Below, one piece after another: positions 12,201 to 36,316 of a DNA stretch of 36,485 nucleotides. Location of the stretch: positions 1 to 36,485 of the forward strand of contig CANRJP010000018.1 in the NCBI GenBank assembly GCA_947630975.1, read 5' to 3'. Positions within the stretch are counted from its first letter, which is position 1; each line of letters begins with the position of its first letter. Below the pieces are notes generated by a model. The model saw only the letters and a list, made by a program, of their open reading frames with translations. It ran no database searches and was not told the DNA's origin. The DNA is from an uncultured Clostridia bacterium. GTDB taxonomy: Bacteria > Bacillota > Clostridia > UMGS1883. Both the position numbers and the translations under genes were made by a program.

Positions 12201-13502
12201 GTCGAGTACAGAACCCACAGCGTGGTCGTTCAGGCGGATGAGGCGATGATAATGGCTGTTGTCAGCGAACCCGCGGCCGCCGACGGCTGGTCGAAGGAGG
12301 CTCCCGTGAACGCCGGAAGCTATGATTACCGGGTAAGCGTACCCGAGACGGAGGCTTTGGCCGGCAACACAGTAACCGGAACCATGATCGTCGAACAGGC
12401 GGCTCCCGCCGGCGAGGTCAGCGCCTCCGATGTGGAGGAGGGCTCCTTCCTGGCCGAGTCCGCGCTTACCCACAGCTTCACCGATGTGAACGGCGGCGCT
12501 CTGAACGGCGCACTCACATGGGACAATGTGGGAGAGCTGGCACCCGAGCAGATAGTGGCCGAGTCCGAAACCGATTACGGCTGGACCTTCGTTCCCGCTG
12601 ACCCCAACTACAAGACGGTCGGCGGAACCGTGAAAGTCAAACTCACTCCCAACGTTCGTGAGGCAAAGGCCGTTATCTATAACCTTCCCGAAGCGGATTA
12701 CGCCTATGTTGACGTGGACGGCGTCAACCTTCAGGAATACGACACGGTAACATTCTATTCCGACATGGAAATGACCGATCCCGTCAGCGAGAGCGTCGTT
12801 ATTCCCGCCGGAACCTCCGGTCAGTTCAGAATCATGCTTGACGGCGACGCCCTGACCGCGCAGGCCGGTACGGTCTACGTGAGCATCGGTTCCTCCAGAG
12901 CCGTCAAGGCCGTGGATTACAAGGCGCAGCTGGGCTTCACTCTTGAACCCGCCGGCATAATTGCCGGTATCGGCGATACCGTGGAAATAACCGTGGCGCC
13001 CGCCGACGGCTCATATGTTGTCGAGAAGGCCGACTGGATGAGCGGCGATGCGAAAGTAGCCGACGTAACCGCCGGAGCCTCGGTCGGCACCGCCGACGTA
13101 AAGGCGTTGGCCGCCGGCAGCACGAGGATCACCGTTTCCGTCACCTTCAGCCATCCCGATCCCGCCGTTGATGAAAAGATAACCATGAGCGGCGAGGCAG
13201 AGGTCAACGTTATAAATAACGATGTCGAGGCGACCGTGACCGGTGCGGCATATGCCGATGGCGCGGTAAACTTCGTCCTCAACAACGCTCAGGATTACGT
13301 CGAGGTCGACGCTTATGCCGCCGAGTATAAGGACGAAAAGCTTCTGAATGTGAAGTCCAGGAAGGTTTCCGTAAATTCCGCGGCGCAGCATATAAGCGTT
13401 GACTTTACGCCCGCGGCGTCCGACTCCGAGATAAGGGTCTATGTCTGGATGGTGGATAAGACCGTTCCCGTGACCAAGGCCGAAAACGTGATAAGAAAAT
13501 AA
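6228..13502 (+). CDS. Very large secreted repeat protein with MBG/YDG-like beta modules and Ig-like domains
   Basis: Signal peptide MKKRILAALVALTMICAVFPATVMAED. At least 5 copies of a 'VYDGK...ITVEY...W..E.PVDAGAY.V' module, YDG-like copies (KTYDGANTVSL, KTYDGTADALL), '(F/E)YGE(T)...' modules and '..L.W..P......Y.W.F.P.D..NY' modules. ORF is open for 7.3 kb. Confidence 0.9.
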   Translation: MKKRILAALVALTMICAVFPATVMAEDAELMASAVTVTSLNYKANGSVSSSGCPVKRNNVMWVSFWNVGTWGRLPYDSDGVIEVIAPNGERSYPSRIKDGGDNYFCWEMSSVETGSYKVNWYANPQRDEDGGLAADQEPTNSLEKKMSAVELTVDPKDGKFETEVANPIYAFENDSLDMLGLPKIVSNDPNNGIRGWKDAEGKTVTRVPALGADGSIPKLTAVVSELPRYDYDIVYADGEHKGESIFVSDADGSLSASIDLGDAVMGYTAEDVKPVNIEFKNTGNQKLTMYGSFNCAVGSLKLDKNPIEPGETVNGQIAAKTGLTAGVHTGVMQFYYNSFRIIRKINLKLTVNSKGITVKPESLTKEYGETRTSTDVKYEILAEDVDDSFIRNGLTFTSAGFEAAAKVGSYPYTVSGQVTGYSVTIDESDKPVVTVTQSEPMVASESTSGIAVGQKLSESVITAKFVNKYTNEPVHGTFKWKDGDKKMSSEGTFVEPYIFTPTDTQNYKTVEDEVTVTVSGGTPTLVTVVSGQKLDPMYDAKPHGVRFQADREGEITVRYRLHSSTEDWSTEEPIDAGSYDVIAYIESEGGYAEGTGVANLTIRQRELTQFLWNPTPVSQKAYNGRTNANIAGVPVEVYYSYYRTVDGKSVADDVRIKRANVTAEFLHPNVGKQTIELTLHAENALEGAQAANYVIPHDMVHHAEATIVPLPLTFTVPDKEKFYGEYIIFDHEDFDISVGHLVEGETKEDVKMVLTSAGAAVDAEVGEYEIKGDTAPTSNYVRNGFQGGAGKVIVKQTTPGLVRDNVAVTDGKEGKPLSTVTLSATFENPYTKNEVKGDLHWKQPETEIKQGANVYEWEFIPEDRHNYTAREGSVTVTGVAKEPASITVQLPENRVYDGKQKVVTATTNSGGAVTVQYQKTDAAPHDGGQEQPSFEGGASAPASADGWTADAPVDAGNYLVKIDVAADGDYAANSTTAVLNISPAEPKAAAGVTAAGVETGQTLDMALLSGTFVGVDGTAVDGKLGWMPYGERQPNQVTVRPDVDYTWVFLPTSENYSSVTGTARVSVTLTRAPKDTVVYNLPGDDGNYAYVNIDGENLKVGDVVAFYKYSVNDQGGVTAAEPDDPVCREVHITRDMNGRVRIALDPDALATSAGEIYVRIEGSTKWETVKYKNEVDFSVDPAEITVKPQETTDVKLIRSDSEYEIVSSKWIVDEDCVSVEGSGESAVVSGLDSGRATLTVETVFKHPDPDSPEKTVTVTRTAPVTVSDRAPTTVTVSLPEQTYDGKAKAVSVEANREGEITVEYAPEGTENWSKEPPVNAGAYRVKATIAPNSDYLGHSTEAKLVINPLEVTLDKGTLAAANKTYDGANTVSLSGEIAITNKVEGDTVSIDGEKITALFVDVNAGQNKTVNVTVPAYSLTGDGSGNYSMPKAAAFTLTANIDPMPVTVTPVGMTKFYGETKTSADVSFTNDKNVPNGELKITFGSEGFAPGAAVKDGAYPYTLDATANSNYSVTLDGEVNPGVTVEKTVPVKVQAYADGIKTEVALSRSKISGHYKNPYTEDHVDGEFTWAEPDKSYSEKGNYQAAYVFTPVDEVNYEKVTGDTVSIIVSDKTPTNFNKLTDEDMKFVYDGRPKRIRFTADRDGEITVKYAPVGTEDWVADEPVDAGAYSVRAYIAATDEFASGLVFTTLNILPLAVEPDYSGIAVAPKTYDGTADALLGGSVAVGNLVEGDEVNIPASAVTAVYENAAAGTAKNVTVTVAADSLTGRDAANYTLAAHTHHVEGEINRRTVNLTASAEKEYGQTLTLTDGDFEVSPDTPLVAGETKADIKAGLSSEGAAETAAAGSYAITATALAGSNYEIGTVTGEVTVTKATPAKVSVSAGNGLAGNTLATVDTLAGTFENPNNHAAVEGALTWARPETVLSAGVYNYEWVFTPGDTDNYNSPVTGLVSVTAGNKTPAALKITVPESLVYDGKAKTVTAETDAKADVTVEYRTHSVVVQADEAMIMAVVSEPAAADGWSKEAPVNAGSYDYRVSVPETEALAGNTVTGTMIVEQAAPAGEVSASDVEEGSFLAESALTHSFTDVNGGALNGALTWDNVGELAPEQIVAESETDYGWTFVPADPNYKTVGGTVKVKLTPNVREAKAVIYNLPEADYAYVDVDGVNLQEYDTVTFYSDMEMTDPVSESVVIPAGTSGQFRIMLDGDALTAQAGTVYVSIGSSRAVKAVDYKAQLGFTLEPAGIIAGIGDTVEITVAPADGSYVVEKADWMSGDAKVADVTAGASVGTADVKALAAGSTRITVSVTFSHPDPAVDEKITMSGEAEVNVINNDVEATVTGAAYADGAVNFVLNNAQDYVEVDAYAAEYKDEKLLNVKSRKVSVNSAAQHISVDFTPAASDSEIRVYVWMVDKTVPVTKAENVIRK

Positions 13503-23191: not shown

Positions 23192-23245
23192 CACAAAAAA
23201 CGACTGCAGTCTCTACTTTTTTTGAGATTGCAGTCGTTTTTTGTG
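23192..23245. terminator. Large bidirectional terminator/hairpin at the 3' end of the polysaccharide operon
   Basis: CACAAAAAACGACTGCAGTCTC / GAGATTGCAGTCGTTTTTTGTG (21/22), flanked by A/T runs, about 40 bp after the BCCT stop. Confidence 0.9.
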
Positions 23246-23288: not shown

Positions 23289-24812
23289 TTATTTTTTCTC
23301 CTCAAGATAACGCTTCGCGTCCTTAATAAAGCTCCATATCATGATTATCATGATAATGCCTATCGGGAAGGCGCTTATGATGCTTACGCTCTGGATGTTG
23401 CTCATGCTGCTCTCCGAGAACACCAACCCTATCGGCAGAACAATGAGCAGCAAGCACCACAGCAGGGTTATCATTGCGTGAGGCTTTTCATTTTGTCCCA
23501 GATTTTTATAACTGTAGCAGGCCGCCGTGTACGCTATGGAGTCAAAGGACGTGGCGTAAAAGGCTATCATACAAACCAGCGTCAGCACAAGAATGAGAGT
23601 GGAGCATGGCATGGTATTGATTATGTTCATGATAAGCCCGTACAGATCGCCGCTCGCCTCGTACTGGGCGATGAAGTCTGCCGCTCCCTTTGCCTGAAGA
23701 CCGAGGCTGTAGTTGCCGAGGATTATAAAGCTGACAATAGTCGAGCCCACGCCGAAAACGTAACCGCCGAGTATAGTCTGCTTTATCGTCCTGCCGCGGC
23801 TTATGTTGCCGATAAAGAAGGGCGCCGCTATGCACCATACCATCCAGTAAGCCCAGTAATATATGGTCCAATCCTGCGGGAAGCTGTTCGCCCTTACCGG
23901 ATCGGTATAGGTGGACAGCTCGAAGAAATTCTGGAACATTTTGCCCAGCGACTGGAAGCCGTTTTCAATGATAAATCGCCCCTGCCCGCCAATGACAAGA
24001 ACCAGAATGAGCAGGCCGAAGAAAAGATATATGCAGAGCTTGGCGAGGAAGCCTATGCCTTTAAAGCCGTGCATAACCGCGTATGTGTACACGGCGCAGG
24101 TTATGAGCAGAATAATTATTGTTACAGTCGTGCGGCTGATGCTCAAGCCGAAAAGCTGTAATATTATGCTCGCCATAAGCGGAGTCGCCACCGAAAAGGT
24201 GGTTGCCGTTCCGGCAAGGAGGGCAAACAGCGCGAAAAGGTCGATTACCCTGCCGACAATGCCGTCGGATTTTTTGCCCAGCACAGGACGGCAGGCCTCC
24301 GAGTAACGTTGGCGGCCGCGTTTCCGCACATGGAGCATGAAGCCGAAGGCCACCGCCAGCACCAGATAAAAGGCCCATGGGATAAAGCTCCAGTGGAACA
24401 GGGGGAATACTCCCGCCCACTCGGTAACGCTGCCCATATCGGCGATATGGGGGTTTGTGGCGTACATGACCCACTCGGAGAAGGAATAAAACAGTATGTC
24501 GGCGGCGAGGCCGCAGGTGAACATCATGCTGCCCCAGGTAAAGAATGAGTACCTCGGCTTTTCGCCCGGCTCACCGAGGACTATATTGCCGTACTTTGAA
24601 AAAGACAGGAACACCGAAATGAGCAGAACTCCCAGCCCTATTATCAGATAATACAGTCCCACCGTGTCCCCGAAGAAGAACCGAACCCTGCTTATGACCT
24701 CGTTGGATTTCACCGGGAAAATAAACAGCAGGACCGCCAATCCAACGATCAGAATAAACGGCGCTAAGGTTATCAGCCAGTCAACCCGGCTTTTTTGTTT
24801 TTTAGTATTCAT
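23289..24812 (-). CDS. BCCT-family (betaine/carnitine/choline) transporter
   Basis: Twelve-TM-like profile; FFTWGSMMFTCGLAADILFYSFSEWVMY, FHWSFIPWAFYLVLAVAFGFMLHVRKR, DWTIYYWAYWMVWCIAAPFFIGNISRGRTIK, FYATSFDSIAYTAACYS are BCCT hallmarks. Confidence 0.93.
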   Translation of the reverse strand: MNTKKQKSRVDWLITLAPFILIVGLAVLLFIFPVKSNEVISRVRFFFGDTVGLYYLIIGLGVLLISVFLSFSKYGNIVLGEPGEKPRYSFFTWGSMMFTCGLAADILFYSFSEWVMYATNPHIADMGSVTEWAGVFPLFHWSFIPWAFYLVLAVAFGFMLHVRKRGRQRYSEACRPVLGKKSDGIVGRVIDLFALFALLAGTATTFSVATPLMASIILQLFGLSISRTTVTIIILLITCAVYTYAVMHGFKGIGFLAKLCIYLFFGLLILVLVIGGQGRFIIENGFQSLGKMFQNFFELSTYTDPVRANSFPQDWTIYYWAYWMVWCIAAPFFIGNISRGRTIKQTILGGYVFGVGSTIVSFIILGNYSLGLQAKGAADFIAQYEASGDLYGLIMNIINTMPCSTLILVLTLVCMIAFYATSFDSIAYTAACYSYKNLGQNEKPHAMITLLWCLLLIVLPIGLVFSESSMSNIQSVSIISAFPIGIIMIIMIWSFIKDAKRYLEEKK

Positions 24813-25686
24813 CTTTGCTTACCTCCTGAATTTTTTTATCATTATATTTATATATAAATTTTTTACCGTTACATATGAACGTAAAGCCTACCGCCAAATT
24901 GTCCTTTCCCTTAATGGCGGCAATATTTTGCAGCTTTGACTCCTTTACGTTTAACCCCGACGCTACGGCTTTCAGTATCTTTGACCGGGTATCATCTATA
25001 TATGATGAGTCAAAGGCTCTAAGCTCGTCCAAGGTATCAAATTCAAAAATCGCTTCATCGGGATATTTTCGTATCCGCATCGGCAATTCGCGTATGTGGT
25101 CGATGTATATAGCTTCCCATAGCTTATCTTTTGTTTCCGGCAAAAAATATTCCTTCTCTAAAATTGACAAAAAATGCGAAGAAAATTCCTCGTTCCAGAA
25201 AACATGGCCCAGCATATACCAAACATTTTCACCGCCAATTTTAACCGAGCGGATATATCCGTCCGGCCCCTCCTCGATGCACCACTCGTTTGTCGCCCCA
25301 TGTGCGTACAGGGCGGAATAATACGCGCCGTCCACCTCAGGCTCAAAAGGGTTGATTGTGAAATAGTTGTCGCCGGAACAGATATATGTATTCCTTATGA
25401 CGTCTTTGGCCGCCCAAACACTCCCGTTATTGTTGCGGGTAAGATATTCCGTATTATGTATAAGCTTTACTCCGAACTTTTCCTTAAGATATGAGAACCT
25501 TTCCGCCTTATATCCGGTCACGACATATATTTCGTCTACTCCGGCCTCTCTAAGCTGTCTGATTTGCCTTTCGATGAGGGACTCGCCCCTTATCTCTATC
25601 AGGGCTTTGGGGTTTTCATATGACAGCGGCGCAAATCGGGCGGATGTTCCCGCAGCCATAATGACCGCGTTGTCAACCTTGCTCAT
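24802..25686 (-). CDS. LicC-like sugar/choline-phosphate nucleotidyltransferase with truncated kinase N-lobe-like C-terminus
   Basis: VIMAAGTSARFAPLSYENPKALIEIRGESLIERQIRQLREAGVDEIYVVTGYKAERF; C-terminal about 78 aa resembles the start of the kinase domain of the neighbouring fusion protein. Confidence 0.85.
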   Translation of the reverse strand: MSKVDNAVIMAAGTSARFAPLSYENPKALIEIRGESLIERQIRQLREAGVDEIYVVTGYKAERFSYLKEKFGVKLIHNTEYLTRNNNGSVWAAKDVIRNTYICSGDNYFTINPFEPEVDGAYYSALYAHGATNEWCIEEGPDGYIRSVKIGGENVWYMLGHVFWNEEFSSHFLSILEKEYFLPETKDKLWEAIYIDHIRELPMRIRKYPDEAIFEFDTLDELRAFDSSYIDDTRSKILKAVASGLNVKESKLQNIAAIKGKDNLAVGFTFICNGKKFIYKYNDKKIQEVSKDEY

Positions 25687-27430
25687 TGAGTTTTTTCATC
25701 TCCTCCCGCGCATATCTGTAGTACTCTTTGGCGTAACGGTACTGCCGCAAGGAATATTCGCCAAACTCAACGCCGAGATTGCGCTTGTATTCGCACCAAT
25801 TGCTCCATAGTAAACCGCAAGCCGCTATATAACAATAGATTTTCACCTTTGTTTCCGACGGACAGTTTCCGTCAAAATAAATGGATATGAGCCTGTCCAC
25901 CTGACGTTTGTTGTACATTGAATAGATACAGAACATGGCAATGTCCATATGTGGGTCCTGCATACCGGCGTATTCCCAATCCGTAAGCTGTATTTCATCC
26001 CCGTCGAACAGGAAATTGTCCGGAACGGCGTCAATATGCGTCAACACTTTCTTACCGGCATGGGACTCAATGTACCCCCGAAGAGACAGAACCTTTTCCT
26101 TTGTCTGTTGGTGGTCCCTGTATATGGACGGAGTTCCGTTCCAAAGAGATTCGTAAAAATCTATCATCCCGAAAATATCAAACTCATGCTCAACCGAAAG
26201 TTCCATTTCGTGAAAACTCCTGAGCCTCTTCATGCAGCTCCTGATGTCAGTCACGTCAAGAGGATCGCACGTCCGAACATTTTCTATGTACTTGGTTATC
26301 TTATAGCCATTGGTTGGGTCGATATATACCGGGTCGTCACAAAGTCCCTTGCCGGATATGGTACGGTAAACCGCCGCTTCTTTTTGCCGGTCGATAAGCA
26401 TATCCGTTCCCTCTCCCGGAACGCGCATTATATACCGCTGTCCATAGCAAGAAAAAATGAACGAACGGTTAGTCATGCCCTTTTTCAGGACTTCAATATC
26501 CGTGATTTCCTTTGTGTCAACGCCAAGGACTTTTGCGATGACGTTCAAGGCGTCGGAATTAAGCTGAGACGAGCTGCTGTCCAGTTCGCGGAGCTGTTCA
26601 TAGGTGTTTATCTCCACCACATCGGCGGCACGGATCACCTTGGCGCAAACTATCATTTTACCTCTTTCATAGAGAGCCTCCTCCCAGAACGAATTATCAA
26701 AGCGGCTGTCGGAGCAGAGGGCTTCCACTCGTTCACGTACCTCATTCGCCTGCTCCTGAAGAAGGTATGCTATGCCGACCATGGAATTGCCCCCGACGCC
26801 GTGATTGACCGTAACCAGCTCAGACTTGCGGTTCACTCTTACGGAACTGTCATCGTCCACAAGATCGCTTACCATATACCACGAATACAGTTCCCGCGTA
26901 CTGAACGGGTTACTGTCACACCAAATGTCGCCGGGAATAATGTATGTGTTTGAGATATGTCCAACAGCCAGCTTTAAAGAGTGGAGATTATTTTTCGTTC
27001 CATAGTCCGGATTGACTATCAGTTCAACGCCATACTCATCGATCAGGTATTCAAACTGCTCCTTCATAAAGCCGACAACAACATATATTTCTCTTATGCC
27101 AACCTCGTGGAGTTGACGAATTGTCCGCTCAATAAGTGGTTCGCCGTTTACCTCCAACAGAGCTTTCGGCGCGGAGGTGTTGATAGGAGCCATCCTCATG
27201 CCGGCGCCGGCGGCAAGGATCACCGCGTTTTTTGGGGACTTGCTCCTGATTTCATTCTGCGCTTTTTCCGTTGGACGTATATCGTCGCTCAAGTATCCGT
27301 CTTTGATTAACGACTTGACGGATCGATTGACCGTTCCGAGAGAGTGACCGCAAAGCTCGGCCAATATGCGCTGATTTATATACGGCTCCAACATCAATGC
27401 GTTCAAGACATCGCATTCTTGTTTGTTCAT
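25673..27430 (-). CDS. Three-domain protein: winged-HTH + LicC-like nucleotidyltransferase + LicA-like choline kinase
   Basis: HTH (NQRILAELCGHSLGTVNRSVKSLIKDGYL), NTase (AVILAAGAGMRMAPINTSAPKALLEVNGEPLIERTIRQL), kinase (LTHIDAVPDNFLFDGDEIQLTDWEYAGMQDPHMDIAMF). ATG at 27430 preceded by aaaggagg. Confidence 0.92.
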   Translation of the reverse strand: MNKQECDVLNALMLEPYINQRILAELCGHSLGTVNRSVKSLIKDGYLSDDIRPTEKAQNEIRSKSPKNAVILAAGAGMRMAPINTSAPKALLEVNGEPLIERTIRQLHEVGIREIYVVVGFMKEQFEYLIDEYGVELIVNPDYGTKNNLHSLKLAVGHISNTYIIPGDIWCDSNPFSTRELYSWYMVSDLVDDDSSVRVNRKSELVTVNHGVGGNSMVGIAYLLQEQANEVRERVEALCSDSRFDNSFWEEALYERGKMIVCAKVIRAADVVEINTYEQLRELDSSSSQLNSDALNVIAKVLGVDTKEITDIEVLKKGMTNRSFIFSCYGQRYIMRVPGEGTDMLIDRQKEAAVYRTISGKGLCDDPVYIDPTNGYKITKYIENVRTCDPLDVTDIRSCMKRLRSFHEMELSVEHEFDIFGMIDFYESLWNGTPSIYRDHQQTKEKVLSLRGYIESHAGKKVLTHIDAVPDNFLFDGDEIQLTDWEYAGMQDPHMDIAMFCIYSMYNKRQVDRLISIYFDGNCPSETKVKIYCYIAACGLLWSNWCEYKRNLGVEFGEYSLRQYRYAKEYYRYAREEMKKLNEQG

Positions 27431-27492
27431 GTACGTTTCCTCCTTTTGTTTTGTGAACATGGGGGCATTTTTCGGGGCCGGTTGGCCCCAAA

Positions 27493-28722
27493 TCAAAGTA
27501 TTTTGTATTTTTTCAGCAGTTCCGTCCGTCTGTGACTTATTTTCATACCCTCAAGGGCAAGATTTTTGTTTTCGCCTTTGCTGAGCCTGATGAACTTTAT
27601 CCAGCGCCCCACCCATACCTTCGGCAGTAGCCAAGGCTTGTCCTCGAGCTCCGGATGTTGGTTGAGCATCTGGGCCTTGTCGGGGAAGATAACATTGAAA
27701 AGGGCCTTTGCTCCGTTTGAATGTTTGGCCTTTCCTCTTGAAGAAAATGCCGCCCGTGTTAATTCGTGGGCCGAGCGCTGGGCCTCGGTACCGTTGCCGA
27801 AAGCTCCGTTACTCATCAGGTCGTCGAGCAGCTCATCCGGGCAGTTGGGCGGACAGAGAGACTCAAGCTTGAAGCCAAGATATGTATTACCAATGTAGAT
27901 CAAGTCGGACAAAAACAGTTCGGCCTCAAAATCTTTGGTCGTGGATTTTATGTAGTCCCAGTCAATTTCACCACCGTATTTTTCGGCATAGAGCAGTATA
28001 TCCAGTACTTGGCGGATACCGAAGCCCCCGGAAATAAGGTGCCGAAAAGCGTGAAACACCAAATAGAGAAAATGGTCGGTATGGTTCATTGTGCGAACCG
28101 GCACGCCGTCAGCGTCAAACTCACGGTAGTTGGCAAATACATCTTTGAAGCATTCGTTCATTCTGCTGCACAGGGGATTACCGTGTCCGGTGGGATTGAG
28201 GTGCAGTTCGATATACAGCCCATCCTCGCCGGAGCCATAGAAGCTAATCTCCTGAAGCTCATCTATTTGTCCCTTGGTTATGTCATCACGCTCGATTTTG
28301 TAGCCTTGTCTTTCGAGAATACCCTTGGCCTTTTCAAAGTCTTTCTTTTCTATCAGAATATCCTCGTCCCCCGATGGCCGGTGGTCGGCCAACTCGCCGT
28401 AAAGCTGACGGCAGACAAGCCCCTTCATCACAATAGGGTGTAAATCCTCCGCCAAAAACGCACGGTAAAGATTCAAAAATGCTTCCGTGTGCCGAGCCTG
28501 ACGCATTATCCACTGCATGGAGATGGTCATGTAGGTCTGATAATTGGGCGAATTAATGAAGTCATCATATTCCGACGCCGCCTCGAATATCAGCGGCAGG
28601 ACGTTGTGGTTTTTGGCGAGGGTGAATACGGCGGGCCAATTTATCGGCGGCAATGGTTTTGCGAACGAGTTATGTACAGATTTATTTAGCAAAGAAAGGA
28701 ATGCGCTTGCGTCACTATCCAT
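27493..28722 (-). CDS. NTP_transf_5-like (PF14907-type) nucleotidyltransferase-fold protein
   Basis: PIVMKGLVCRQLYGELADHRPSGDEDILIEKKDFEKAKGILERQGY and HFLYLVFHAFRHLISGGFGIRQVLDILLY match the family pattern. Confidence 0.8.
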   Translation of the reverse strand: MDSDASAFLSLLNKSVHNSFAKPLPPINWPAVFTLAKNHNVLPLIFEAASEYDDFINSPNYQTYMTISMQWIMRQARHTEAFLNLYRAFLAEDLHPIVMKGLVCRQLYGELADHRPSGDEDILIEKKDFEKAKGILERQGYKIERDDITKGQIDELQEISFYGSGEDGLYIELHLNPTGHGNPLCSRMNECFKDVFANYREFDADGVPVRTMNHTDHFLYLVFHAFRHLISGGFGIRQVLDILLYAEKYGGEIDWDYIKSTTKDFEAELFLSDLIYIGNTYLGFKLESLCPPNCPDELLDDLMSNGAFGNGTEAQRSAHELTRAAFSSRGKAKHSNGAKALFNVIFPDKAQMLNQHPELEDKPWLLPKVWVGRWIKFIRLSKGENKNLALEGMKISHRRTELLKKYKIL

Positions 28723-28736
28723 TTTACTCCCTCGTT

Positions 28737-29747
28737 TTATTCCGGAAAATTATAAATGTATTCCTTAAGGTTTTCTTCTATATATTGTATGTCCTTGGCG
28801 TATTGCGGATATTTCTTTTTGAGGTTTGTATTTTTAACAGATATGGCCGGGTCAAGATGTGATTTGGGAGACGTGTGGTCTTTAGGGTCTAAGCCCACAA
28901 ATTTAATTAGCTTTGCCGTAGTTTCATCGTATTTATAAATTAAATCTTCAAACCGGATCAGACGCACTCTGTCTTTATCGTATTCCTCTCTTTTGCGATG
29001 ACGGCGGGTTATTTCATACCACTTGCAAAAATCCTTAACGCTTTTATGCGGCGTTACTTTCCCGTGCCACACCTCATTTTCAAGGAGATATATGTCGCGG
29101 GGATCTCTTTCCACCACTACAACGCGAATATCGTCATCGAAATAATTTAAATATCCATTCAGATTTGACGGCGGCAGCAATTGATCGACCATGACATAAT
29201 CTGACTGTTTTTTGTTGAGGGTCTTCACAACATTTTTTATATAATTTTTTGTTAACCTATAAAATGTCTCTTTGTCTATGGCGGAAAAATATCCTTTTTC
29301 GTCAGTCAAGTTTAATAATGAAAAGCCTTCATTTTTGAACAATCCGTATCCGACTTTACTGATAATTGTGTCAATAAAATAAAATAAATGTCCCTTTTCT
29401 ATACGGTCATAATGCCACCATGAATTACATTGCAGTTCAGTTATGCTTTTTATATATTCATCGGTATACCGCATGAAATCGCCGTCCATATACCTTTTGT
29501 ATCCCTTCCTGATAAAACTGCCGTTGAGCTGCTTTGCGAATTTTATATATCTTTTTATAGCATTGCTGGTGTTGTGCCGATTATTATTTTCGATAAGGTT
29601 ATATTCCAAATCGCGTATACCGTCAGGATCATGAATAAATCTATATTCATATCCTCCCACAGAACTGCAGCTGCTAAATTCGGAAAACAAATCTGTGACC
29701 GCGCTGGATCCGGTGCCGTAATAACTGGCGCAAGTTATAATTCGCAT
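28737..29747 (-). CDS. Sulfotransferase-like P-loop protein
   Basis: N-terminal CASYYGTGSSAVTDLFSEF (5'-PSB-loop-like); VVVVERDPRDIYLLENEVWHG and VRLIRFEDLIYKYDETTAKLIKFVGL (3'-PB and C-terminal sulfotransferase patterns). RBS aaggagg. Confidence 0.75.
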   Translation of the reverse strand: MRIITCASYYGTGSSAVTDLFSEFSSCSSVGGYEYRFIHDPDGIRDLEYNLIENNNRHNTSNAIKRYIKFAKQLNGSFIRKGYKRYMDGDFMRYTDEYIKSITELQCNSWWHYDRIEKGHLFYFIDTIISKVGYGLFKNEGFSLLNLTDEKGYFSAIDKETFYRLTKNYIKNVVKTLNKKQSDYVMVDQLLPPSNLNGYLNYFDDDIRVVVVERDPRDIYLLENEVWHGKVTPHKSVKDFCKWYEITRRHRKREEYDKDRVRLIRFEDLIYKYDETTAKLIKFVGLDPKDHTSPKSHLDPAISVKNTNLKKKYPQYAKDIQYIEENLKEYIYNFPE

Positions 29748-29762
29748 TAAACGACCTCCTTC

Positions 29763-31238
29763 TTAGGATTTGCGTATGGCCTTTATTTTTTCGATAAAAT
29801 AATTACGTTTAATAATCATTACAATGCAAATTGCCGCTATAATCGCATATCTTACGATGATCATGTCATAAACAAATACAACGCTCAAAGCGAACATTAC
29901 CAGCGCCGCAGAAATCAGTACAATGAATTTCATATCATACACTCTGACCCCGTCAGTCATTTTATTCAGCACCTTTATGTGGAATAAATAATGGCTTACG
30001 GAAAATAAAATATAGCAGAACAGCGTCGTGTATCCCGCGGCAATGTAGCCAAATATGGGTATGAAAATATAATTAAGAATAATATTTACAATCGCGCCAA
30101 ATACCGAGGCGATCATTATGAACTTATTTGCCTCGTAGTAGAACTCCACATTGCCAAACAATGTGTACAAAAAGGTAAAATACACAGATAGAGCCACCGG
30201 CGGAATTATCCAGCGTGCCTCATAATATGCGGGTGAGGCAAAAATGCGTATTATTTCCGGGCCAAAGCATATTATAATTACAAGCATACAGGCCCACATT
30301 AAAAGCAAAACATTTGCGTTTTTCCCTATATCCTTATATTTTTTATTTTTCATTGCCTTATACGAATATGGAATAAACGAGCTGTTTACGGCTGTGGTTA
30401 ACAAATTCATCATTTGGGATATATTATATGCGAGGCCGTATATGGCCGCCTGAGACAGGCCTACCATTTTTCCTATCATTATTCTGTCGGCCTGACCTAA
30501 AACCGACATCGACAAATAGTGCGGTATGAGCGGAATGTTGAACCAGAGGGCGTATTTCCAAAATGATTTTACGTAGAAGCTTTTGCCTTTGTAAAAATTC
30601 ACCGCGCAAAGGACAATACCTATACACACCTGAACACCAACATAAGACAGTACCCTCGCCTCGGCCTTGTGCGAGGAAATCAACACGGCTCCCACGCCAA
30701 TGACAGGGCTTAAGACAGACATTATCAAAGTAATCGCCACAAGCCCACGGTAACGGTAGTCAAACCGCTGGCGTGCGCTCCACAGTGAAAAGGCCGGTGA
30801 AAACATAAGTTCAACAAACATGGCGACAACAAGTAATGTCGGAAGTCCCAAAAGCTCATTGAAAAGTTTGTATCTAAGCAAGTAAATCGCAAACAAAATT
30901 GCGGTTACAGTCATCGACAGTCCGTTAAGCGCCGAAGTATATCTGTTCCGCTCATTTTCAAACTTTATCATGCCATTGTTGAAAACGCCGGCGGCTAAAT
31001 TGAGTGTGGCAAAAATATATATCAAGTTGTACCATGATTGGTAAATCGTGTATACACCATACTGCTCCGTGGTCAAAAGCCGGGTAAAAATGGGTATAGT
31101 GAGTATATTTATGCCTTTTTGCATGAAGTTGCAAAGAGCGAACCAAACTGAAGCCTTTACGGCGACAGGCATGGATATATAATGTTTATACATTTTTTTC
31201 ACAAAATTCACAAACGGCATTCCTTCCCGTAAATACAT
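29763..31238 (-). CDS. Wzx-like polysaccharide flippase (MOP superfamily)
   Basis: VKASVWFALCNFMQKGINILTIPIFTRLLTTEQYGVYTIYQSW and multiple TM segments. Start chosen for RBS aaagga; the ORF track extends to 31289. Confidence 0.9.
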   Translation of the reverse strand: MYLREGMPFVNFVKKMYKHYISMPVAVKASVWFALCNFMQKGINILTIPIFTRLLTTEQYGVYTIYQSWYNLIYIFATLNLAAGVFNNGMIKFENERNRYTSALNGLSMTVTAILFAIYLLRYKLFNELLGLPTLLVVAMFVELMFSPAFSLWSARQRFDYRYRGLVAITLIMSVLSPVIGVGAVLISSHKAEARVLSYVGVQVCIGIVLCAVNFYKGKSFYVKSFWKYALWFNIPLIPHYLSMSVLGQADRIMIGKMVGLSQAAIYGLAYNISQMMNLLTTAVNSSFIPYSYKAMKNKKYKDIGKNANVLLLMWACMLVIIICFGPEIIRIFASPAYYEARWIIPPVALSVYFTFLYTLFGNVEFYYEANKFIMIASVFGAIVNIILNYIFIPIFGYIAAGYTTLFCYILFSVSHYLFHIKVLNKMTDGVRVYDMKFIVLISAALVMFALSVVFVYDMIIVRYAIIAAICIVMIIKRNYFIEKIKAIRKS

Positions 31239-31353
31239 TGAAATATCCTTTGATATAAAATTCTCAAAATATACGTTTGTTAAAAACAAAAGTGCTATTC
31301 ATGTATTGGAACAAATCTAAAATTCATTAATTACTATTAACGAGTCAGTATCC

Positions 31354-32067
31354 TCAATCTGTATAATATTTTTTTATCCATTCCTTGGCGATATATAAAT
31401 CAATTTCCTTATGTATATCTATAGACTCGTCTATTTTAAACGGAATTATTTTATTGCCCATAAAGCCCCACGGTTGTTGACCTTCTTTGCCGGAAAGCAC
31501 AAACTCCGTATTCAGCACCCAAAAATTGTGAGAAAGGAACAGGCACTCCGGTAAATCCTGACGGTTGGTCGACACCTTGCCTGTTACGCCCTTTTCATAC
31601 ATTGCAAGGGTTCCGTCCGGCTTTAATGTCTTTGCCCTCAACGGATGATGATCGTTGTCCTCATACACCGGCACCACGGCGGTTACGGACATATCGTTTT
31701 TCATAATCTCAACACATTTTTCTATCCATTCCGCCTTTACTGTAACATTGTTGGCCAGAACCACGACCAAAATATCCGGCGCATTGCCTTCTTTCTTCAT
31801 AACGTCAAGAGCGTGAAGTATGCAGTCAATATGCTGTGCTGATGGCAGTGCCAGTTCAGCGGGACGGATAATAGATTTATATCCCAACTCAGCCGAAACA
31901 TTAAGAATATTTTCATCGTCGCTGCTGCAATAATAATTATCAATATTTTTAGCCTTTGCCGCAGCGTTCGCGGGGTAGTAGAGTACAGGCTTGCCCAAAA
32001 TATCAAGTATGTTTTTATCTTTTAGAGTATTGTTACCTCTGCCGGTCAGTAGCGCTGTAACTTTCAC
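31354..32067 (-). CDS. CMP-sugar synthetase-like (acylneuraminate cytidylyltransferase family) protein
   Basis: VTALLTGRGNNTLKDKNILDILGKPVLYYPANAAAKAKNIDNYYCSSDDENIL...IIRPAEL pattern; GTG start with aaaggag RBS (ORF track starts at 32097). Confidence 0.8.
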   Translation of the reverse strand: MKVTALLTGRGNNTLKDKNILDILGKPVLYYPANAAAKAKNIDNYYCSSDDENILNVSAELGYKSIIRPAELALPSAQHIDCILHALDVMKKEGNAPDILVVVLANNVTVKAEWIEKCVEIMKNDMSVTAVVPVYEDNDHHPLRAKTLKPDGTLAMYEKGVTGKVSTNRQDLPECLFLSHNFWVLNTEFVLSGKEGQQPWGFMGNKIIPFKIDESIDIHKEIDLYIAKEWIKKYYTD

Positions 32068-32884
32068 GATATTTCTCTCCTTTAAATAATGTATCAAAAT
32101 CTACCCGTTCAAATACTTCAAGCTTGCCGCCGCGTGTGGCGTTATAAATTTTTATGCCGTGAGCGTCAGCGTACTGTCTGGCGGCTTCGTAGGCAAGTGT
32201 AGATTTATATAGTTGTGGAACATTGGTAATTCTATCATTCTCAGAAAAATGATCTTGTAAATTCTGTTTGGATAAAGAGCCATCCGGATTAAGTGTGACA
32301 GAATAATTGTGGTCAATCCCTAACAAATAAATAGATTTAAATCCCATATATGCCGCGATTTGTATAGCCATATAGGTCACAGTCCAACCGCCATAAAACA
32401 TTTCCGATATATCTTCAGAAAACAAAGGTAATTCAGGATAAAATTTTTTATTATTTATCTTTACATAGTGTGCATCTTTTATATATGGATACATCGTATA
32501 TTCAGATGATGCAATAAATTTTTCACTGTCAACTTTATAAGAAATATTGTTTTTTTGCTTCTTTATTAACTTATAATCTTGTGCACAATAATAGGTAGGA
32601 CGCCAATCTGTCTTATCGAATATTTCAAAAATACAATGTGAACCAAAACATATTTCTTTTTTTAATTTACTTAGATCTTCCAGTTTTAAACTTGGTCCAT
32701 TGCCTATAATAAAACAACGTTTCCCATAATGAGCATTTTTAAGAGTCGTTATATATTCATAACTTTGCTTCATCTTCTTTTCATGGGATGGTTTACAAAT
32801 CATTTTACATATGGGCGTATAAATCTTGTGGTAATAAAACCTATAGTAGGGACGAAACATATCTTTTATTTGATTTTTTATCAT
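32033..32884 (-). CDS. DUF115/Maf-like protein, putative glycosyltransferase
   Basis: RCFIIGNGPSLKLEDLSKL, PTYYCAQDYKLI, GGWTVTYMAIQIAAYMGFKSIYLLGIDHNYS are DUF115/GT42-like motifs. Confidence 0.75.
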   Translation of the reverse strand: MIKNQIKDMFRPYYRFYYHKIYTPICKMICKPSHEKKMKQSYEYITTLKNAHYGKRCFIIGNGPSLKLEDLSKLKKEICFGSHCIFEIFDKTDWRPTYYCAQDYKLIKKQKNNISYKVDSEKFIASSEYTMYPYIKDAHYVKINNKKFYPELPLFSEDISEMFYGGWTVTYMAIQIAAYMGFKSIYLLGIDHNYSVTLNPDGSLSKQNLQDHFSENDRITNVPQLYKSTLAYEAARQYADAHGIKIYNATRGGKLEVFERVDFDTLFKGEKYRESYSATDRQR

Positions 32885-32896
32885 TTTGCCAACCTC

Positions 32897-33931
32897 TCAA
32901 TTATATTTGATTTTAAATATTAATTTAAGGGGAAAATAAAAACCATGCAATGCAAAAAATAGAACAATGCGCTTATTTAAGGGGTACTTTTTCAAAAGGT
33001 TTTCTTCCTTTGATTGTCTATAAAAGCTTATATATTTTGCAAATATTTGTTTCATTCTTCTCTTCTTCGAATCTTTTTCCTCTGTGTTTTCTTTATGAAA
33101 AAAATCATATTTAAGATATAAAATAATGTCATTTAAACGATAGAATCCATGATAAATTTCATATTCGGGGTGCGTTTTCAACCATGGCGTTATGGCATTA
33201 ATATATGTATCAACTATCTCTTGAAAATCAGGTTTATATCGGTTCGTGATAGACGCCGGATTATAATAATAAAGATATATGGTCATTGGAATATAATTAA
33301 CGGAACTGATGTGCGAAAGGTATTTCAACATGAAAAGCATATCAGTACCTATTTTTACGCCTTCATCAAAGTACACCCCATAATCGTCAATAATCCTTTT
33401 GCGTACCAAAGTACCTACGGGTCCGCGATAGGAACAATATCCGTCTCCTTTGCAATACGCTTCACCCAAAAAACAGCTTTTTATCATAGAAGAACAATCA
33501 TTCAGCATAATTGGTTCATGCGCACTTTTATTCAATTCATCAATGCTATCAGAATCACTCAATTTATACGCATTAAACAATAACCATTCGGCCTTATCTT
33601 CCCAGTACTTTGAAATAATTTTATAAAATTGAGGCACCAATGCATCATCGGCATCAACAAATAGTATCCATTCGCCGGAACTATTCTTTATTCCGGTATT
33701 TCGAGCAGCACCCTCTCCACCGTTTTCGCGGTTTACAACCTTAATACACAAATATTTATTTCCGTATTCATCGCATATTTTTCCACTTCCATCTGTTGAT
33801 CCGTCGTTTACCAAAATCACTTCAGTTCTATCATCTATCTGATGAATAAAGCTTTCGATACATCTGCGAAGAAATTTTTCAGCGTTGTAAATAGGAACTA
33901 TGATGCTCAAACGAATTTTATCTTTACACAT
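32897..33931 (-). CDS. Glycosyltransferase family 2
   Basis: LSIIVPIYNAEKFLRRCIESFIHQIDDRTEVILVNDGSTDGSGKICDEY...NGGEGAARNTGIKNSSGEWILFVDADD. ATG at 33931 with aaggaaggag RBS. Confidence 0.95.
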   Translation of the reverse strand: MCKDKIRLSIIVPIYNAEKFLRRCIESFIHQIDDRTEVILVNDGSTDGSGKICDEYGNKYLCIKVVNRENGGEGAARNTGIKNSSGEWILFVDADDALVPQFYKIISKYWEDKAEWLLFNAYKLSDSDSIDELNKSAHEPIMLNDCSSMIKSCFLGEAYCKGDGYCSYRGPVGTLVRKRIIDDYGVYFDEGVKIGTDMLFMLKYLSHISSVNYIPMTIYLYYYNPASITNRYKPDFQEIVDTYINAITPWLKTHPEYEIYHGFYRLNDIILYLKYDFFHKENTEEKDSKKRRMKQIFAKYISFYRQSKEENLLKKYPLNKRIVLFFALHGFYFPLKLIFKIKYN

Positions 33932-33956
33932 ACATCTTTCTCCTTCCTTTAAAAAT

Positions 33957-35216
33957 TTAAATGATTTTTTTTGCATTAACACTGTATGTTAATGCAAATA
34001 TATGCATTGCATTCCAAAAGCATGAAAAATCAATGTCCGGGATACCAATAAACATCGCAACTATGGTTGAGATAAGAAAAAGCCCGCAAGATATATTATT
34101 TTGATTGCTCTTTTTTAAGCTCGAAAACAAAAGAGAGAAACTCATAAAAAACCACGGAATTGCTCCAAAAATACCAATTTGTGCCAACAGCGAAGGCAAA
34201 AATTGCGCACCTCGCACATTTTTATACCCAGCACCAAATTTAGGAAACAACTTAAACTGCTCTAACGCATTAATATCCCAATTTTGACGAGTGTGAAATG
34301 ACCCTGTTGAATCTTTTTCAAATATTACTTGATTAAGCACATCCATTAATCCACCAGAAAATAAGGCTAAAAAACAAGCAAGTAGAGCAATAGGGACAAG
34401 ATATTTTAACGCTTTTTTATCCTTGCTGACAAATAGATATATTACTCCTACTATAGCCAATGTCCCATATGCCGTGGATGAAAAAGTCAGGATTATTTCA
34501 ATTGCAAGGGCAATCGAAAGCAATATTTTTTGTCTGGTCAATTTACGGGAAATGACATAATAAAATGCCCCCACCAAAAACGCTCCGCAATAACTCGGTT
34601 CCATAAATGTTGAAAAGAGTCGTTTATATGCACTGTGATCCCAATAATATGCCGACCTGGTATCAGAAGTATAGATAAAAGTTGTCCATAAAAAATTTCT
34701 CGGTAAAATATTGATCGTGGTCAAAAATTGTAATGCACCTATCACGACAACAAATGTTATTGCCCTAATTATTATTTTTTCAAGCTCCTTTTTCTCGATT
34801 GTTTTTGCCAAAATCCAGCATGAAAAGTAGCAAAAAATATAAATAATAATCATAAGTAACCACAAAATAAACTGATTTTGACTTATGCTATAATTTTTTC
34901 TATTAATTAGATATGATATTACCATAGATATAATAAGAACCAAAGAAGCAGCCATAGATATATTTGGGGCTTTTATTTTAGAGAGATGAATTTTTCCAAA
35001 GCTTCCTGTACGCATTGAGAAAATGACAGTATAAAGCACCGCAACTCCTGAAGTTATAACCTGCGGGCCAATGCCATCATCGCCCAACATGATTACCGAG
35101 GCTGACTGAAAAACCATCGCCAGCAATATTGTGGAGATCATGTATTTGGGATTGTTGTTAAAAAATGAAAAAATTAAAACAGCAATCCATATAAATCCAA
35201 AAATCGTAATACTCAT
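33957..35216 (-). CDS. O-antigen polymerase/ligase-like membrane protein (Wzy-like)
   Basis: Multi-TM protein with RLFSTFMEPSYCGAFLVGAFYY and large periplasm-type loop (HTRQNWDINALEQFKLFPKFGAGY). The ORF track start at 35228 is a TTG. Confidence 0.8.
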   Translation of the reverse strand: MSITIFGFIWIAVLIFSFFNNNPKYMISTILLAMVFQSASVIMLGDDGIGPQVITSGVAVLYTVIFSMRTGSFGKIHLSKIKAPNISMAASLVLIISMVISYLINRKNYSISQNQFILWLLMIIIYIFCYFSCWILAKTIEKKELEKIIIRAITFVVVIGALQFLTTINILPRNFLWTTFIYTSDTRSAYYWDHSAYKRLFSTFMEPSYCGAFLVGAFYYVISRKLTRQKILLSIALAIEIILTFSSTAYGTLAIVGVIYLFVSKDKKALKYLVPIALLACFLALFSGGLMDVLNQVIFEKDSTGSFHTRQNWDINALEQFKLFPKFGAGYKNVRGAQFLPSLLAQIGIFGAIPWFFMSFSLLFSSLKKSNQNNISCGLFLISTIVAMFIGIPDIDFSCFWNAMHIFALTYSVNAKKII

Positions 35217-35224
35217 TATTTTTC

Positions 35225-36316
35225 TCAACCTTTTATTTCCATGTATATCTGCCTAAGCTTTTCACATTCACAACTTATGTCATATCCCTGTTTCTCTATT
35301 GTTTTGCATGATAAAGTCGAATTGCCTTTTCTGTCCATAATGGCAGAACATTTCATAATTTCCCTTGCCCAATATTCAGGTGATTGTTCTAAACTTATAT
35401 ATTCGATATTATCTGAAACTTTTGTCGCATCCGGCGCAGCTTCCGAAGCGTAACATGGCAAACCATTAGCCTGTGCCTCTATAAGTACCAAACCAAGTCC
35501 TTCCCATTTTGATGGAAAAACAAATACATCCATACCGCAATACATTCGTTCTATGTCATTCCAACAACCAGCAAAAATCACAAAATTTATTAAATCTTTA
35601 TCAATAACTTTTTCATAAATTTTTCCTTTCAGTTCGCCATCTCCCACCAAAAGTAACTTCGACTTAGAATTTAATTTGTGATATTCCTCAAAAATGTCTA
35701 ATAAAAACTCATGATTTTTCTGTTCAGCAAAATTTCCTATATGTCCAATAACGAATTCATCTCCAACGATTCCAAATTCCTTACGTACATTATCACGAGT
35801 ACAGCTGTTAAAATGAAACCGATCTACATCTATGGCATTATTTAAAACAATATAATTATCATTTTTATACAACCAATTTCCTGCTACATTAGAACAAGCG
35901 AGAAAATCCGTTGCCAAGAATTTCATTATTGGGCGCAAAACTGAATTTATAACAGGATATTTACATTCTGTGTTATGTGCATGAACAATTATTTTTTTTA
36001 CGTGATTTCTTCTTGCGACAAACGCCTCCAAAGCCATCGTACTGCTGTTGCCGTGAATATGTACGACATTATAATGTTCTTTTTTTATCAATCCGTTAAG
36101 GTTTGCGGTATATTTGAAAACATTTTTTTTGGGACCAATATTAAATATTCTTGATCTGTTACCTTCCAATTCTGCTCTATATTCATCACATATTTCATTC
36201 ACTACCGCAAAATCAATTTGTATCCCTTCTTTGTCCATTTGACGATAATAGTTCATTATAACCGATGTTATGCCATTAAGCCGAAAACGCACGGTATTTA
36301 TAATTAAGACCTTCAT
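35225..36316 (-). CDS. Glycosyltransferase family 4
   Basis: GITSVIMNYYRQMDKEGIQIDFAV, VVHIHGNSSTMALEAFVARR, IGHIGNFAEQKNHEFLLDIFEEY, VFPSKWEGLGLVLIEAQANGLPCYAS. Confidence 0.93.
   Translation of the reverse strand: MKVLIINTVRFRLNGITSVIMNYYRQMDKEGIQIDFAVVNEICDEYRAELEGNRSRIFNIGPKKNVFKYTANLNGLIKKEHYNVVHIHGNSSTMALEAFVARRNHVKKIIVHAHNTECKYPVINSVLRPIMKFLATDFLACSNVAGNWLYKNDNYIVLNNAIDVDRFHFNSCTRDNVRKEFGIVGDEFVIGHIGNFAEQKNHEFLLDIFEEYHKLNSKSKLLLVGDGELKGKIYEKVIDKDLINFVIFAGCWNDIERMYCGMDVFVFPSKWEGLGLVLIEAQANGLPCYASEAAPDATKVSDNIEYISLEQSPEYWAREIMKCSAIMDRKGNSTLSCKTIEKQGYDISCECEKLRQIYMEIKG

Follow-up and report, generated by a model that had tools for sequence, protein, structure and literature searches.

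Surface phosphocholine is a motif of host mimicry and immune recognition that has been studied chiefly in Haemophilus, Neisseria and the pneumococcus. The closest described system, the lic1 locus (LicABCD) of Haemophilus influenzae and Streptococcus pneumoniae, comprises an EamA-type choline importer (LicB), a choline kinase (LicA), a cytidylyltransferase (LicC) and a transferase (LicD). A second point of comparison is NadR, a nicotinamide adenine dinucleotide-dependent repressor and enzyme that joins a helix–turn–helix (HTH) domain, a nicotinamide mononucleotide adenylyltransferase and a ribosylnicotinamide kinase in one chain serving a salvage pathway (PMC7221760 and references therein). Here we analyse contig CANRJP010000018.1 of an uncultured Clostridia bacterium (the window below, which is the whole contig, C18, at 36,485 bp; the genome is 2.95 Mb in 191 contigs). 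Its minus strand carries a polysaccharide gene run, from 36316 to 28737, followed by genes for an NTP_transf_5 protein, an HTH-LicC-LicA fusion (LicCA), a separate LicC and a BCCT transporter, and then by an inverted repeat.

The last three genes form a cassette that is the known, lic1-kind phosphocholine-activation pathway in a new form. As in lic1, the kinase, which has the LicA aromatic cage, and the cytidylyltransferase are homologues of the pneumococcal LicA and LicC of known structure, and the context is one of polysaccharide genes. Unlike lic1, the cassette has a BCCT carrier in the slot of the EamA/DMT-type LicB, a LicC and a LicA domain fused behind an HTH, a second, separate LicC, no LicD within the operon and a pair of conserved operator-like sites, O1 and O2, in the leader; these sites are new here. 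With NadR the fusion shares a DNA-binding domain, a nucleotidyltransferase and a small-molecule kinase in one chain of a salvage pathway, whereas its domains are of the LicC and LicA types and not of the NadR enzyme families, its ligand is different and its regulation is predicted. The fusion may thus work like NadR by analogy, and is not a NadR member. A literature search for fusions of this type, with most subscription journals outside its coverage, found nothing, and in a text search of a 2023 survey of phosphocholine genes BCCT-linked forms, fused forms and Clostridia went unmentioned.

We propose that three genes for choline activation, a cassette spread by horizontal transfer, sit at the 3′ end of a polysaccharide operon. 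The BCCT carrier would import choline, the LicA domain of the fusion would phosphorylate it and the separate LicC would make cytidine diphosphate (CDP)-choline. The winged HTH would bind the palindrome-like pair O1/O2, which covers the fusion's own leader and start codon; the fusion would then be choline kinase and autoregulator at once, in a NadR-like build, with its diverged LicC domain as the putative sensor of a ligand (choline phosphate, CDP-choline or cytidine triphosphate, CTP). A separate enzyme, most likely a LicD-family transferase encoded elsewhere, would attach the phosphocholine to a surface glycan, and the NTP_transf_5 gene would belong to the polysaccharide operon, having stood beside the insertion point. 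We give this whole mechanism (an acquired cassette, autoregulation through O1/O2, a separate LicD-family transferase and NTP_transf_5 outside the cassette) a probability of roughly 0.7. On balance we also lean, with less confidence, towards the fusion being a trifunctional NadR-like choline sensor in gut anaerobes of several phyla: a kinase whose diverged LicC domain senses phosphocholine or CDP-choline and which represses its own operon (kinase, LicC and BCCT) through the operator pair. If so, one protein would wire choline supply to surface decoration.

A conserved cassette, probably for choline activation

First, the three genes keep company across distant taxa. Among 79 independently fetched LicCA loci, 66 had enough downstream sequence for gene order to be scored; 55 of these carry LicCA-LicC-BCCT in that order, 3 have LicCA and BCCT only and 5 have LicCA, LicC and a standalone LicA-like kinase. 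Loci with the full order come from Clostridia, Erysipelotrichia, Coriobacteria, Streptococcus, Lactobacillus and Treponema. The spread of so compact an importer–kinase–cytidylyltransferase set over gut Clostridia, Erysipelotrichia, Coriobacteria and Treponema points to choline import for surface decoration in many commensals. In the two loci tested among the five with a standalone kinase (L095 and L170), the next gene encodes an EamA carrier of the LicB type in the BCCT slot, a swap that supports BCCT as the choline carrier. The preliminary description had the BCCT protein supply choline or a related quaternary amine, and its place in the importer slot is upheld by this replacement in at least two relatives, with choline as the presumed substrate. 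The BCCT proteins of the G042, G278, G136 and G394 cassettes are 78–89% identical to the window's; the closest solved relative of the carrier is DddT, followed by CaiT and BetP.

The distribution of the cassette is patchy. The fusion is absent from the 20 family relatives and 27 order relatives examined and present in 16 of the 391 class genomes sampled, and this genome has a single copy. Along the contig, the G+C content is 31–42% in the polysaccharide genes, 46–50% in the cassette and 51–61% in most of the remainder, a contrast that is consistent with acquisition.

The surroundings of the cassette bear on where its product would go. Choline-binding-repeat proteins are encoded near 16 of the 79 LicCA loci and LicD within about 10 kb of 14; the G267 locus has LicD, a choline-binding-repeat protein and a metallo-beta-lactamase-fold protein together. 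CDP-choline might instead feed membrane phosphatidylcholine rather than a glycan, through a Treponema-like LicCA and a CDP-alcohol phosphotransferase. Treponema denticola has a LicCA-dependent phosphatidylcholine route, of which our literature search gave passing mentions only, and this genome does contain two weak extra CDP-alcohol transferase genes, on contigs C77 and C23. Both, however, sit in polysaccharide loci, and here and in many relatives the cassette lies among polysaccharide, LicD or choline-binding-protein genes, which makes the membrane route quite unlikely and leaves a surface glycan as the preferred destination. The two genes (G000:C77:9037-9387 and C23:23860-24219), weak members of the CDP-alcohol phosphatidyltransferase family whose loci also hold NTP_transf_5 copies, are possible users of CDP-alcohols.

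Some relatives have additions to the cassette. In L066, L067, L068/L117 and L109, genes for MTTB-type methyltransferases and, in varying sets, for a corrinoid protein, a RACo-like activator and URO-D are interleaved with LicCA-LicC-BCCT, which suggests that quaternary-amine demethylation is linked with choline activation; such demethylation by MTTB was ruled out here, MTTB being absent from this genome. L104 has, besides a standard cassette, another and diverged set of LicCA-type genes some 5 kb upstream of it.

One choline kinase and two unequal LicC domains

Second, the LicA cage and the pocket residues of the separate LicC are conserved. The AlphaFold2 model of the fusion (mean predicted local distance difference test score, pLDDT, 91.7) is matched in Foldseek by LicA (4r7b/4r77) and LicC (1jyk), with target-normalised template-modelling scores near 0.85, and the same pneumococcal proteins are its best solved relatives by sequence (1jyk, E 1e-27; 4r77, E 1.5e-30). 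Mapped onto the cage of S. pneumoniae LicA (PMC4364537), Tyr197, Trp251, Trp254, Tyr268, Val178, Thr29 and Asp176 correspond to Y509, W564, W567, Y581, V491, T342 and D489 of the fusion (607-residue numbering). The lic-like choline-phosphate activation set of the preliminary description is thus supported by a choline kinase with the LicA cage, two LicC domains and a BCCT in the importer slot.

The two LicC domains differ in what they have retained. In an alignment to pneumococcal LicC, the best solved relative of the separate protein (numbering of the 1jyk chain, in which W156 is native Trp136), E155, W156, W211, E236 and D238 are kept in 77 of 77 separate LicCs. In the fused domains R38, K48, D127 and E236 are kept, W156 is missing in 89 of 90 and D238 is Asn in 80 of 90. 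The window's own fused domain follows this pattern: it retains the nucleotide-site residues (equivalents of R, K, D107 and E216), lacks the Trp136 equivalent and has Asn for Asp218. W156 reportedly lines the choline pocket. From this unequal conservation of pocket residues, we infer that CDP-choline synthesis belongs to the separate LicC and that the fused domain binds nucleotide with an altered or lost activity. A structural match of the fused LicC domain to the phosphonate cytidylyltransferase fusion PntC-AEPT is weaker than that to 1jyk; PntC-AEPT has no kinase, and no phosphonate genes were recognised in the window.

The last 60 or so residues of the separate LicC form a tail with homology to the beginning of the choline-kinase domain; its GMTNRSF loop is altered. 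Decay of a former fusion was rejected as its origin, since the tail is conserved in about 15 other, diverse loci; for the same reason it is probably functional.

A conserved pair of leader sites

Third, the leaders of the fusion genes share a pair of sites. An unsupervised palindromic motif search in 81 LicCA leaders recovered TGTTCATGAACA in nearly all of them, with a score of about 405 (width 20) against 38–45 for shuffled leaders. Inspection of the leaders placed the centre of one copy, O2, at the start codon and the other, O1, just upstream. With a site called at a score of 9/12 or better, O1 is present in 59 of 85 LicCA leaders and 13 of 645 control genes, O2 in 48 and 8, and both together in 38 leaders and no control gene. 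After re-anchoring, the two sites start 24 or 25 bp apart in 56 of the 57 leaders carrying both (24 bp in the window), and the information content reaches 2.4 bits within the sites against 0–0.5 bits in their flanks, the Shine–Dalgarno region excepted. Several relatives show, by eye, −35/−10-like boxes that end just before O1. The sites are absent from five members of a second LicCA subfamily.

The simplest reading is that the winged HTH of the fusion would bind O1 and O2 and so regulate its own operon. Alternatively, the motif could be an RNA control element: O2 overlies the start codon, the TGTTC of O1 could pair with the GAACA of O2 and so hide the ribosome site, and 28 of 59 leaders have a T tract just before O1. 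Yet the folding energy of the O1–O2 region is ordinary (mean z −0.33), no compensatory changes were seen by eye, each site is by itself a palindrome or near-palindrome and the gene that follows encodes a DNA-binding domain. We therefore rejected the RNA element, which seems unlikely, in favour of binding of the fusion to DNA.

Scanning 1.47 Mb for sites scoring at least 11/12 returned 139 (47 in one shuffled set), mostly clustered at LicCA leaders. One such site lies 55 bp before LicD in L168, and none lies within 240 bp before any gene labelled as a choline-binding protein. A regulon wider than LicCA is not claimed, as the sites cluster mainly at the leaders.

A transferase probably encoded outside the cassette

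The preliminary description saw no LicD and offered the NTP_transf_5 protein as the candidate replacement that would transfer the activated headgroup. The first part holds for the window, which lacks LicD, and fails for the genome: a scan with PF04991 matched a LicD at C65:484-1131 (91 bits), whose neighbours include glycosyltransferases and a Wzy-like gene and whose motif GTLLGA..GFIPWDDDID is intact. LicD is found in 14 of the 16 LicCA-positive class genomes and in 101 of the 375 LicCA-negative ones (odds ratio 19, p 1.4e-6, phylogeny ignored), and it is linked to LicCA in few of the surveyed loci, as noted above; a LicD outside the cassette operon is ordinary in the LicCA family.

That the C65 protein is itself the phosphocholine transferase is a tentative proposal, which we hold at somewhat less than an even chance. 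Its intact motif, its score, its glycosyltransferase neighbours and the usually unlinked co-occurrence of LicD with LicCA speak for it. Its history does not: a syntenic, 82.6% identical orthologue, with an HD neighbour 95% identical, is present in a genus relative (G004) without LicCA. The C65 LicD therefore predates the cassette, was not acquired with it and may use another donor, and the LicD family also has members that transfer other CDP-linked groups (FKRP/FKTN). Our preference is accordingly stated for the family, a separate LicD-type transferase, rather than for this gene.

The NTP_transf_5 protein is a different matter. It adjoins the cassette on the same strand, it has a nucleotidyltransferase-fold signature with an invariant D119-x-D121, and the only LicD of the genome is ancestral, all of which would suit a dedicated cholinephosphotransferase replacing LicD. 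PsmN, annotated as a nucleotidyltransferase in a lasso-peptide cluster and needed for placing hexoses on a phosphoserine (PMC9266682), would be a precedent if it is a PF14907 protein. Linkage and co-occurrence nevertheless argue against it. Only 1 of the 79 cassettes has such a gene nearby (L152, where it is not adjacent), so that the conserved linkage with licCA looked for is lacking, and among the 391 class genomes NTP_transf_5 shows no association with LicCA (5 of 16 positive and 133 of 375 negative genomes, p 0.8; phylogeny ignored). Besides the window copy the genome holds six further such genes, seven in all. Two of them, on C7 (about 90% identity to the window's) and on C95 (about 87%), belong to polysaccharide loci that have no lic genes.

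Profile comparison agrees with the linkage data. The protein is a clear member of PF14907 (156.5 bits), a family without an assigned function that is distinct from LicD (PF04991); hmmscan gave NTP_transf_5 only, and hhalign against PF04991 returned a probability of 7%, aligning a short catalytic patch alone. The LicD motif G(T)LLGA..GFIPWDDDID is missing and KG..(x)..Y..R..GD-x-D stands in its place, with K100, G101, R115, D119, D121, H224 and H228 invariant. Solved relatives are weak matches only; one is a lincosamide nucleotidyltransferase, aligned across the active-site region at E 0.024. An AlphaFold2 model from two sequences was unusable (pLDDT 40) and a literature search for PF14907, with most subscription journals outside its coverage, found nothing. 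Given a LicD in the genome and a lack of conserved linkage, the two outcomes that the preliminary description itself named as refuting, and given also the lack of co-occurrence, the paralogues and the profile comparison, we rejected a dedicated LicD replacement, which has at most a very slim chance of being correct. The protein is probably a generic nucleotidyltransferase-fold component of polysaccharide loci and not a cassette member, and its annotation as a phosphocholine transferase should be avoided; a false lead is stopped here.

Several observations weigh against the proposed mechanism. A scan of this genome for choline-binding-repeat proteins, run without a positive control, found none. 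The equivalent of LicA Glu213 in the kinase domain is Tyr (Y525), and the role given to the residues that the fused LicC domain has lost is presumed. In the window, the stretch immediately preceding O1 showed no sigma-70-like promoter, and autoregulation may therefore act on read-through or on another promoter. The right half of O2 also encodes Met-Asn, for which reason control genes starting with MN were checked; one of 64 carries an O2. As to the transfer step, the association of LicD with LicCA is uncorrected for phylogeny, and the C65 locus, shared with a relative that lacks LicCA, is ancestral, its use for phosphocholine being putative.

Gene models and genomic setting

Coordinates are given in Table 1. 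The four minus-strand genes of the preliminary description (BCCT, LicC-like, HTH-LicC-LicA and NTP_transf_5) are all present where it put them and match its families in Pfam. Its account of overlapping or closely spaced starts and stops needs one correction. Overlaps of 14 nt between the fusion and LicC and of 11 nt between LicC and BCCT stand; the fusion and NTP_transf_5 genes are separate. As listed, the open reading frame of the fusion starts at TTG 27496, where the NTP_transf_5 gene has its stop region. The true start is probably ATG 27430, because an AGGAGG Shine–Dalgarno sequence lies nine bases upstream, relatives share a conserved MN.. N-terminus and the leader motif is conserved. This start leaves an intergenic region of 62 bp, and the two genes are therefore without translational overlap. 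The terminator placed behind the last gene was borne out as a near-perfect 22-bp stem with a T tract within its 3′ arm; a terminator consensus scan missed it, probably since the T run sits within the stem.

Table 1. Features of the cassette and its surroundings in the window
Feature	Coordinates	Strand	Basis
Terminator-like inverted repeat after BCCT (arms 23245-23224 and 23213-23192)	23192..23245	-	Sequence reading
BCCT transporter, 507 residues; proposed importer of choline or another quaternary amine in the LicB slot	23289..24812	-	PF02028, 407 bits
Separate LicC, 294 residues; CTP:phosphocholine cytidylyltransferase (residues 1-230) and tail of about 60 residues	24802..25686	-	NTP_transf_3/LicC-like; 1jyk, E 8.7e-41; tail by alignment
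HTH-LicC-LicA fusion, 585 residues from ATG 27430	25673..27430	-	HTH_24, NTP_transf_3 and Choline_kinase
LicA choline-kinase domain of the fusion, full aromatic cage	25697..26515	-	4r77, E 1.5e-30; residue mapping
Diverged LicC domain of the fusion	26567..27229	-	Alignment to pneumococcal LicC
Winged HTH domain of the fusion (PF13412)	27290..27430	-	E 2e-11; model helices 3-14, 20-27 and 31-43
O2 CGTACATGAACA (consensus TGTTCRTGAACA), operator-like palindrome copy lying across the start codon	27424..27435	-	10/12 match
Shine–Dalgarno AGGAGG between O1 and O2	27439..27444	-	Sequence
O1 TGTTCACAAAAC, first operator-like copy (consensus TGTTCACGAAAA)	27448..27459	-	10/12 match
NTP_transf_5 protein (PF14907), 409 residues	27493..28722	-	156.5 bits; curated cut-off 31.2
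Sulfotransferase-like protein	28737..29747	-	Weak Sulfotransfer_3 match
Polysaccharide genes: Wzx-like flippase, PseF-like cytidylyltransferase, MptE/WaaZ-like, GT2, Wzy-like, GT4	29763..36316	-	Pfam and similarity

In the polysaccharide run, the GT4 label of 35225-36316 was given by reading and similarity, with no Pfam basis. The PseF-like cytidylyltransferase and the MptE/WaaZ-like protein (31354-32884) may form a module for the activation and transfer of cytidine monophosphate-linked sugars; the pair is duplicated, at 89% and 59% identity, in the polysaccharide locus of G000:C86 (L087, 7753-9254). Homologues of the sulfotransferase-like protein occur in 7 of the 79 surveyed LicCA loci, where they are commoner than NTP_transf_5, and in G278 a copy with 59% identity lies some 4 kb upstream of the LicCA gene. 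Members of this family recur around LicCA in L067, L078, L096, L104, L108, L125, L138, L141 and L159.

The last 148 bp of the contig (36338-36485) are 93% identical to the start of C7 (G000:C7:1-147), another polysaccharide locus, which likewise closes with a near-identical NTP_transf_5 gene, there followed by a serine recombinase. With a common leader and end gene and differing middles, the C18 and C7 loci are mosaic polysaccharide loci. Since the contig stops at a repeat that C7 shares, the assembly may lack a further LicD. At the other side of the cassette, the window encodes a 2424-residue protein with YDG and MBG repeats (6228-13502), which is probably a surface protein.

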